A stretch of DNA of 64,000 bases from Halopelagius inordinatus (GTDB taxonomy: Archaea; Halobacteriota; Halobacteria; Halobacteriales; Haloferacaceae): contig NZ_FOOQ01000001.1 of NCBI RefSeq assembly GCF_900113245.1, positions 682,001-746,000 of the forward strand. Reading direction: 5' to 3'. The notes beneath the pieces were generated by a model. That model was given only the letters and a program-made list of their open reading frames with translations. It did no database searches and had not been told where the DNA came from. Positions 58,464 to 61,175 of this stretch are shown in pieces (the stretch's first letter is position 1; each line of letters begins with the position of its first letter). A program made the translations under genes and the position numbers.

Positions 58464-61175
58464 ATGAAACAGGCAGGGCTCACGGACGACTTCGGCGGGG
58501 GTGACGGCGACGCCGACGGCGGCGACGCGCGCCCCGACGAGGAGGCCGCGTGGGTCGCGGGGGAGACGGGACAACACGTCTCCGAGGTCATCGACGCGGA
58601 AGACATCAAGTTCCCCGACGCGGATGGGACGGTCGAACTCGCCGTGACGCAGGTGGACTACACGGTCGAGGGGTCCGGGCGCACCGAGTACCCCGTCGTC
58701 CACCTGTTCGGTCGCGCGCCGGACAACGAGACGAAACACGTCCGCGTCCTCGGCTTCGAACCGTACTTCTACGCGCCGACCGAGACGCTCTCCGACGAGA
58801 AACTCGACAAGAGCGTCATCACGCGGACCGAGGACGGCTACGAGAGCATCCGCGGCGAGGAACTCACGAAGATATGCACCCGGACGCCGCGGGACGTGGG
58901 GCAGATTCGCGACGAGTTCGAGCATTTCGAGGCGGACATCCTCTTTCCGAACCGACTCCTCATCGACAAGGACATCCAAAGCGGCGTGCGCGTCCCCGCC
59001 CGAGAACTCGACGACGGGACGCTGCAGGTTCCGCACGACGAGGTGCGACCGGCGGACGTCGACGCCGACCTCAGGGTGAACACGTTCGACATCGAGGTGG
59101 ACGACCGGTCGGGGTTCCCAGAGGAGGGCGAAGAACCCATCGTCTGTCTCACCTCCCACGACAACTACCGCGACGAGTACATCGCGTGGTTGTACAACGC
59201 GCCGGAGGCGGGCGACGGCGTCGAAGCCCCGACCGACCTCGGCGACTACGAACCCCTCCAGTCGGACACCGACGTGGAGATACGCGCGTACGACCGCGAG
59301 GACGAGATGCTCCACGAGTTCGTCGAGTACATAGAGGAGACGGACCCGGACGTGCTGACGGGGTGGAACTTCGAGGACTTCGACATGCCGTACTTCCTCG
59401 ACCGGATGGAGCGGGTAGACCCCACCTCCGACTACGACTTGGACCCCGACAGACTCTCTCGCCTCGGCGAGGTGTGGCGAAGCGGATGGGGCGGCCCGGA
59501 CGTGAAGGGCCGCGTCGTGTTCGACCTGTTGTACGCCTACAAGCGCACGCAGTTCACCGAACTGGAGTCGTACCGACTCGACGCGGTGGGCGAACTCGAA
59601 CTCGACGTGGGCAAAGAGCGCTACTCCGGCAGCATCGGCGACCTGTGGGAACAGGAGCCTCGGCGACTGCTCGAATACAACGTCCGCGACGTGGAACTCT
59701 GCGTCGAGATAGACCGCAAACAGGACGTCGTCGCCTTCTGGGACGAAGTCCGGACGTTCGTCGGATGTAAACTCGAAGACGCGCCGACGCCGGGCGACAC
59801 CGTCGACATCTACGTCCTGCACAAGGTCCACGGCGAGTTCGCCCTCCCCTCGAAGGGCCAACAGGAGTCAGAAGAGTACGAGGGCGGGGCCGTCTTCGAC
59901 CCCATCACGGGCGTCAAAGAGAACGTCACCGTCCTCGACTTGAAGTCGCTGTACCCGATGTGCATGGTGACCATCAACGCCTCGCCGGAGACGAAGGTGG
60001 ACCCCGAGACGTACGACGGCGAGACGTTCCACGCGCCCAACGGGACGCACTTCCGGACCGAACCCGACGGCATCATCCGGGAGATGGTGGACGAACTCCT
60101 CACGGAACGCGAGGAGAAGAAACGCCTCCGCAACGACCACGACCCGGACTCCCCGGCGTACGAACAGTTCGACCGACAACAGGCCGCGGTGAAGGTCATC
60201 ATGAACTCGCTGTACGGCGTCCTCGGGTGGGACCGGTTCCGCCTCTACGACAAGGAGATGGGCGCGGCGGTGACCGCCACCGGGCGGGAGGTCATAAACT
60301 TCACAGACGAGAAGGCCAGCGAGATGGGCCACTCCGTGGCGTATGGAGATACTGATTCAGTTATGCTCGAACTCGGACCGGGCGTCTCGAAGGAGGAAGC
60401 CATCGAACAGTCCTTCGAGATAGAAGAGCGAATCAACGACGCCTACGACGAGTTCGCACGGGAGGAACTCGACGCCGAGGAGCACCGGTTCCAGATAGAG
60501 TTCGAGAAGCTCTACCGGCGATTCTTCCAGGCGGGCAAAAAGAAGCGGTACGCGGGCCACATCGTCTGGAAGGAGGGCAAAGACGTAGACGACATCGACA
60601 TCACCGGCTTCGAGTACAAGCGCTCGGACATCGCGCCCGTCACGAAGGAAGTGCAAAAGCGCGTCATCGAGATGATCGTCTACGGCGAGGACGACGGCGT
60701 GATCAAAGACTACGTCCACGACGTCATCGCCGACTTCGAGAAGGGGAACCTACCGCTCGACGAAATCGGCATCCCCGGCGGCATCGGTAAGCGCCTCGAA
60801 GCCTACGAGACCGCGACGGCCCAGGTTCGCGGCGCGCAGTACGCGAACCTGCTTCTCGGGACGAATTTCGACCGCGGGTCGAAGCCGAAGCGCCTCTACC
60901 TCCGGAAGGTCCACCCCTCTTTCTTCCGGCGGATGGAGGCAGAAGAGGGGTTCGACCCGCAGAGAGACGACCTGTACAAGGCGTTCAAGCGCGACCCGGA
61001 CGTCATCTGCTTCGAGTACGAAGACCAGGTTCCGGAGGCCTTCGAGGTGGACTGGGACAAGATGCTCGACAAGACGCTGAAGGGCCCCATCGCGCGAATC
61101 ATCGAAGCGCTCGGGATGTCGTGGGACGAAGTGAAATCCGGACAGGAACAGACCGGACTCGGGAGTTTCACGTGA
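58464..61175 (+). CDS. polB: Replicative DNA polymerase, family B
   Basis: This 903-residue polymerase has the 3'-5' exonuclease motifs FDIEVDD (Exo I, about 210) and GWNFEDFDMPYF (Exo II, about 302). The polymerase motifs are DLKSLYPMCM (motif A, about 492), VIMNSLYGVLGW (motif B, about 580) and YGDTDSVMLE (motif C, residues 627-636). A KKKRYAG lysine cluster follows at about 690. The protein is uninterrupted: no intein is present at any of the three sites used in related archaea. However, the codons of YGDTDSV (60342-60362) are all A/T-ending, unlike the rest of the gene. The N terminus is acidic and glycine-rich. Single gene with its own promoter. Confidence 0.97.
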   Translation: MKQAGLTDDFGGGDGDADGGDARPDEEAAWVAGETGQHVSEVIDAEDIKFPDADGTVELAVTQVDYTVEGSGRTEYPVVHLFGRAPDNETKHVRVLGFEPYFYAPTETLSDEKLDKSVITRTEDGYESIRGEELTKICTRTPRDVGQIRDEFEHFEADILFPNRLLIDKDIQSGVRVPARELDDGTLQVPHDEVRPADVDADLRVNTFDIEVDDRSGFPEEGEEPIVCLTSHDNYRDEYIAWLYNAPEAGDGVEAPTDLGDYEPLQSDTDVEIRAYDREDEMLHEFVEYIEETDPDVLTGWNFEDFDMPYFLDRMERVDPTSDYDLDPDRLSRLGEVWRSGWGGPDVKGRVVFDLLYAYKRTQFTELESYRLDAVGELELDVGKERYSGSIGDLWEQEPRRLLEYNVRDVELCVEIDRKQDVVAFWDEVRTFVGCKLEDAPTPGDTVDIYVLHKVHGEFALPSKGQQESEEYEGGAVFDPITGVKENVTVLDLKSLYPMCMVTINASPETKVDPETYDGETFHAPNGTHFRTEPDGIIREMVDELLTEREEKKRLRNDHDPDSPAYEQFDRQQAAVKVIMNSLYGVLGWDRFRLYDKEMGAAVTATGREVINFTDEKASEMGHSVAYGDTDSVMLELGPGVSKEEAIEQSFEIEERINDAYDEFAREELDAEEHRFQIEFEKLYRRFFQAGKKKRYAGHIVWKEGKDVDDIDITGFEYKRSDIAPVTKEVQKRVIEMIVYGEDDGVIKDYVHDVIADFEKGNLPLDEIGIPGGIGKRLEAYETATAQVRGAQYANLLLGTNFDRGSKPKRLYLRKVHPSFFRRMEAEEGFDPQRDDLYKAFKRDPDVICFEYEDQVPEAFEVDWDKMLDKTLKGPIARIIEALGMSWDEVKSGQEQTGLGSFT

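Follow-up and report, generated by a model that had tools for sequence, protein, structure and literature searches.

How does a gene in which only 12.4% of codons end in A or T come to carry seven consecutive A/T-ending codons, and why do these lie at its catalytic motif C? The question is raised by polB, the family B DNA polymerase gene of Halopelagius inordinatus, for which the initial annotation offered two answers: a scar of a past intein, left by co-conversion of flanking DNA from an AT-rich donor, or a segment that reduces cleavage by the homing endonuclease. Here we follow both through intein-free and intein-bearing relatives. The window denotes the whole stretch of DNA that was analysed (64,000 nucleotides), to which all positions refer, and A/T3 denotes the use of A/T-ending codons.

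Results

The gene and its patch lie in the window as follows.

58464..61175, plus strand: polB, an uninterrupted open reading frame (ORF) for a family B DNA polymerase of 903 aa, with the Pfam domains DNA_pol_B and DNA_pol_B_exo1
60342..60362, plus strand: the A/T-ending patch, codons 627-633 (YGDTDSV), TAT GGA GAT ACT GAT TCA GTT

The sequence and its gene-wide background bear out the patch as it was first described. The longest A/T-ending run elsewhere in polB is 3, in agreement with the annotation's view that the patch is the only one of its kind in the gene, and motif A (about codons 492-498) and motif B (577-585) hold zero A/T-ending codons, as expected from its description of the other catalytic motifs as G/C-ending. 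For a genomic background we used 20 loci of 20 kb together with the 64-kb window; in the 240 GC3-rich ORFs that these supplied from the same genome (92,467 codons) there were two runs of at least seven A/T-ending codons, the polB patch included. The one other run starts at codon 2-3 of its ORF, in the usual start region, which leaves the patch as the sole internal seven-codon run in about 92,000 codons sampled from the genome. Similar patches, which might have proved frequent in other genes, are thus rare there. Nor are the same codons universal in haloarchaeal polB: at the patch positions intein-free relatives have from 0/7 to 6/7 A/T-ending codons, and the congener G001 has 0/7. By exact match the 21-base string occurs once in the genome, and it was absent from the other matches of 197 relatives, from elsewhere among the matches listed for 391 genomes of the class, and from IMG/VR viral contigs. 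Because such runs are so rare in this genome and the string was seen in none of these collections, the patch is real and beyond chance.

The patch reaches from 9 bases before to 12 bases after the polB-c insertion point, YGD^TDS, where the insertion lies in intein-bearing relatives, confirming motif C as an intein position. All four intein sites of polB are vacant in this gene.

60350..60351, plus strand: vacant polB-c insertion point, codons 629/630, YGD^TDS, placed from Halobellus clavatus and other intein-bearing relatives
60204..60212, plus strand: vacant polB-b site, about codons 581-583, KVIMN^SLYG, with G/C-ending codons here
59943..59951, plus strand: vacant polB-a site, about codons 494-496, without island or mosaic peak
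59367..59372, plus strand: vacant polB-d site, about codon 302, where relatives show a peak of mosaic haplotypes and also a few A/T3 islands

Matches to the polB-c intein were found in 60 of 391 genomes of the class. A search of the H. inordinatus genome found none, and the only congener sampled, G001, is also empty at this site. The DP2 gene of H. inordinatus (L250, G000:C1:56200-62200) carries an intein at pol-IIa, KRRN^C, and the lineage is therefore exposed to homing. Elsewhere in polB, the polB-a site (codons 494-496) is occupied by an intein in several relatives, yet shows neither island nor mosaic peak, and A/T3 runs and a mosaic peak are seen near polB-d (codon about 302) in relatives L048 and L076, weaker than at polB-c.

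To place the patch among its relatives, we modelled the probability of an A/T-ending codon from the amino acid and from the background of the gene concerned. The 78 intein-free polB genes used are the best matches to H. inordinatus polB and come from genomes that are not phylogenetically independent; in them the corrected A/T3 excess reached its gene-wide maximum at codons 620-638, that is at polB-c, where the residual in a seven-codon window was 0.21 (SD 0.05). The next internal peak fell at polB-b, the first codons also being high, as is usual, and motif A (polB-a) showed no excess in these 78 genes. A/T islands in the GC-rich intein-free polB genes were placed in a similar manner: 26 of 58 lay within 15 codons of polB-c, against about 2 expected, with 9 others near polB-b, 5 near polB-d and 0 near polB-a. 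Their spread among genomes was uneven (variance ratio of 2.5 against a mean of 1.04), and the A/T3 excess correlated with local divergence (rho 0.32, P=0.008). Two further genes gave peaks at their own intein sites, intein-free MCM (n=17) at the cdc21-a site, GDPGTGK^S, and intein-free DP2 (n=17) around the pol-IIa site, over a wider zone. The vacant MCM-a site of H. inordinatus itself lacks a strong island. The patch in Halopelagius polB is an extreme case of this class-wide pattern.

The same regions have a mosaic ancestry. Among intein-free polB genes, the correlation between third-position and gene-wide distances was weakest around polB-b and polB-c (0.22-0.25, against a mean of 0.55), and divergence between close relatives was highest there. 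In a mosaic scan blind to the intein sites, which scores the best local match over the best global relative in 140 windows, the top 14 windows all lay at polB-c, polB-d and polB-b, a result that argues for the import of tracts over private mutation. Near-identical tracts (at least 95% over 60 bp) common to distant genomes were not seen at the polB-c site. A link of the A/T3 islands and the local mosaicism in polB, MCM and DP2 to intein history is well supported.

Comparison with the nearest relatives delimits two segments in H. inordinatus.

60330..60362, plus strand: tract in which every codon, 623-633, is unlike the congener G001 in pairwise comparison, with a sharp right edge at codon 634
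60294..60374, plus strand: 81-bp query segment, closer to Halogeometricum than to the congener by identity comparison

Gene-wide, polB of G001 shares 94% aa and 91% nt identity with that of H. inordinatus and differs in 18% of synonymous codons; beyond the right edge of the tract, codons 634-644 are identical in the two genes except for 638. Over the 81-bp segment, two genomes that we name Halogeometricum from identical motif strings in named records are 84% and 83% identical to the query and the congener 77%, whereas over codons 31-600 the congener is closest (92.5%, against 87.3% and 86.3% for Halogeometricum). Serine 624 is common to this gene and Halogeometricum and is not found in the congener. 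By a nearest-match measure the ancestry conflict in this genome is modest, at 81% versus 78% local identity. The best local matches belong to Halogeometricum, and one of these alleles is intein-bearing; in the limited sample no donor with the exact string was found. The tract conflicts in ancestry with the rest of the gene and coincides with the point where a homing element inserts (-9 to +12 bp), both of which are marks of a homing-associated co-conversion tract.

A further mark of such tracts appears when empty and occupied alleles are compared. In close empty-empty pairs, which come mostly from Halorubrum, 49% of synonymous codons differ within +/-12 codons of polB-c against 10% nearby, and in close occupied-occupied pairs the figures are 15% and 14% (bootstrap by genome, P(EE<=OO)=0.001 for local synonymous divergence). 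The flanks of intein-bearing alleles are therefore homogenised relative to those of empty ones (0.15 versus 0.49), with the exception of the empty Haloferax alleles L026 and L100, whose flanks match occupied alleles. A/T3 is 0.28 in the inteins themselves and 0.12 in their hosts, and in 51 of 51 alleles the intein has the higher value. In GC-rich hosts the core of occupied alleles has at most 4/7 A/T-ending codons, so plain copying from one of the sampled intein-bearing alleles does not explain the extreme patch; the simple model of a scar, which would have the A/T patch in occupied alleles, was rejected, since these alleles fall short of it. In three relatives (L158, L159 and L160), probably Haloquadratum, polB has an intein of the same family, and about 60% of the gene's codons end in A or T; these are possible A/T-rich donors.

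Discussion

We favour, with a probability of about 0.6, the reading that the patch is the footprint of repeated homing-associated gene conversion of flanking DNA at polB-c, and we infer that the haplotype was replaced as a result of endonuclease cuts and that a polB-c intein was once present in this lineage or in its donor. Once the homing endonuclease of an invading intein had cut the empty allele, repair would copy in the intein and, along with it, some tens of bases of the coding sequence that flanks it in the donor. As the intein is gained and lost over many rounds, or as other alleles in circulation convert the site, roughly +/-12 codons there would be replaced repeatedly, so that intein-free alleles would end with foreign, often A/T-richer synonymous haplotypes. 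The haplotype now present in this genome is the most A/T-rich found and is related to Halogeometricum-type alleles; A/T-richer donors could account for the A/T bias, as could partial selection for codons that resist the endonuclease. Homing by gene conversion is experimentally established for haloarchaeal polB (PMC3024317), and co-conversion of a flanking residue, a proline, was inferred for MCM (PMC10643990). Several results count against conversion, namely the missing donor with the string, the ceiling of 4/7 A/T-ending codons in the core of occupied alleles from GC-rich hosts, the polB-a site without island or mosaic peak, the flanks of L026 and L100, the modest local conflict and the lack of a strong island at the MCM-a site of this genome. 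The first of the two original answers is partly supported, in that co-conversion of a foreign flank is the best single account of the islands, the mosaicism and the tract conflict; a search for an AT-rich donor of the string found none. More tentatively, and at odds that we place below even, vacant haloarchaeal intein sites may be hotspots of recombination and codon diversification; the A/T-rich mosaic islands there, about 25 to 50 codons long, would then be a record of repeated intein gain and loss, and in part a synonymous immunity against the homing endonuclease.

The second answer, that of evasion, survives as a weaker alternative. It supposes a target site synonymously recoded for resistance to the endonuclease; alleles that depart from the common G/C-ending form would be cut less often and would stay empty. 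From -9 to +12 bp, the patch covers about one LAGLIDADG footprint, and in a GC3-rich genome escape would show as A/T-ending codons without an AT-rich donor. Moreover, cores with at least 5/7 A/T-ending codons occur in 7/80 empty and 0/52 occupied alleles, A/T3 at -4 to -1 is 0.34 in empty versus 0.22 in occupied alleles (one-sided P=0.02), and diverged resistant target alleles are known for the WHO elements of yeast (PMC7282813). Across the whole core, however, A/T3 does not differ significantly between empty and occupied alleles, and a pure evasion model was rejected on this count. The divergent zone of about +/-12 codons exceeds the footprint and includes amino-acid changes, occupied alleles are synonymously diverse too, at larger distances, and the mosaic signal indicates imported tracts, not private mutations. 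In haloarchaea, MCM endonucleases cut sites whose differences are mostly synonymous (PMC10643990), and single synonymous substitutions are reported to be tolerated (PMC3024317). Recoding for resistance is on balance an unlikely origin of the patch.

Codon choice could also be selected for host function, for example through slower translation or weaker RNA structure at a catalytic motif. Within +/-12 codons A/T3 is raised in both allele classes over a background of about 0.10: in occupied alleles it is 0.16-0.28, in empty ones 0.18-0.34 (0.28-0.34, save for 0.18 at +1 to +4). Part of the elevation could therefore be locus-intrinsic. The islands are nevertheless patchy between genomes and not uniform, close occupied pairs are not divergent, mosaic ancestry at three intein sites is not predicted, and neither motif A nor the Walker A motifs of the control genes Rad50 and SufC show an A/T3 excess. 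Selection on codons at catalytic motifs was rejected on these negative Walker A controls, and we regard a host function as very improbable. Mutagenic repair, in which single strands exposed by recurrent cuts undergo more C-to-T mutation near the break, would also place the excess around the cut site and favour A/T, but the strand asymmetry predicted of such resection and deamination (T excess on the left, A excess on the right) was absent at 4/4 sites tested, leading us to reject it, and the best local matches, which are to other taxa, speak for import; mutagenic repair, too, is highly implausible. Ordinary codon-use drift at a short conserved motif would fit a 7/7 count confined to a single genome, with related Halogeometricum genomes reaching up to 5/7, but is scarcely credible for the sole internal seven-codon run sampled, in a tract where 11/11 consecutive codons differ from the congener, at the position of the class-wide peak.

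Footprints of the kind expected from conversion at polB-c have counterparts elsewhere. The co-conversion tract of the group I intron in plant mitochondrial cox1 (PMC3192709) likewise is a short flank with donor differences that are mostly synonymous and at third positions, and its retention after putative intron loss has been described (PMC3192709). Here, by contrast, the elements are inteins of an archaeal chromosome, both flanks are affected, and the footprint is found in many intein-free alleles and several genes, with an A/T composition signature. Work on intein homing in haloarchaeal polB and mcm concerns the same genes, intein families and gene-conversion mechanism, and the portions of it considered here make no mention of codon islands or of mosaic haplotypes at vacant sites (PMC3024317, PMC10643990). 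In yeast, repeated homing of WHO elements replaces the 3' end of FBA1, an essential gene, and the sequence left behind is resistant and specific to the allele, as may have happened here, although there the element lies beside the gene and no intein is involved (PMC7282813). Conversion tracts in the WHO experiments were asymmetrical, extending 106-306 bp on one side and 5-14 bp on the other (PMC7282813).

Whether an intein is present or absent tells only where the homing cycle stands today. Should a readable footprint persist at vacant sites, intein-free genomes would allow earlier invasions and losses to be inferred, natural conversion tracts could be measured for length, and the frequency of intein loss, a long-standing question, would become testable. 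A caution also follows, in that short haplotype conflicts and odd codons in replication genes can stem from homing and not from selection on the protein.

Two minor observations concern polB in other relatives. Five-codon A/T-ending runs occur at about codons 530-555 in L037, L044, L055, L079 and L080, where no intein site was found. Relative G039 has two different YGDTDSVM sites (G039:C1:277571-277594 and G039:C4:64015-64038) and therefore probably carries two polB genes.
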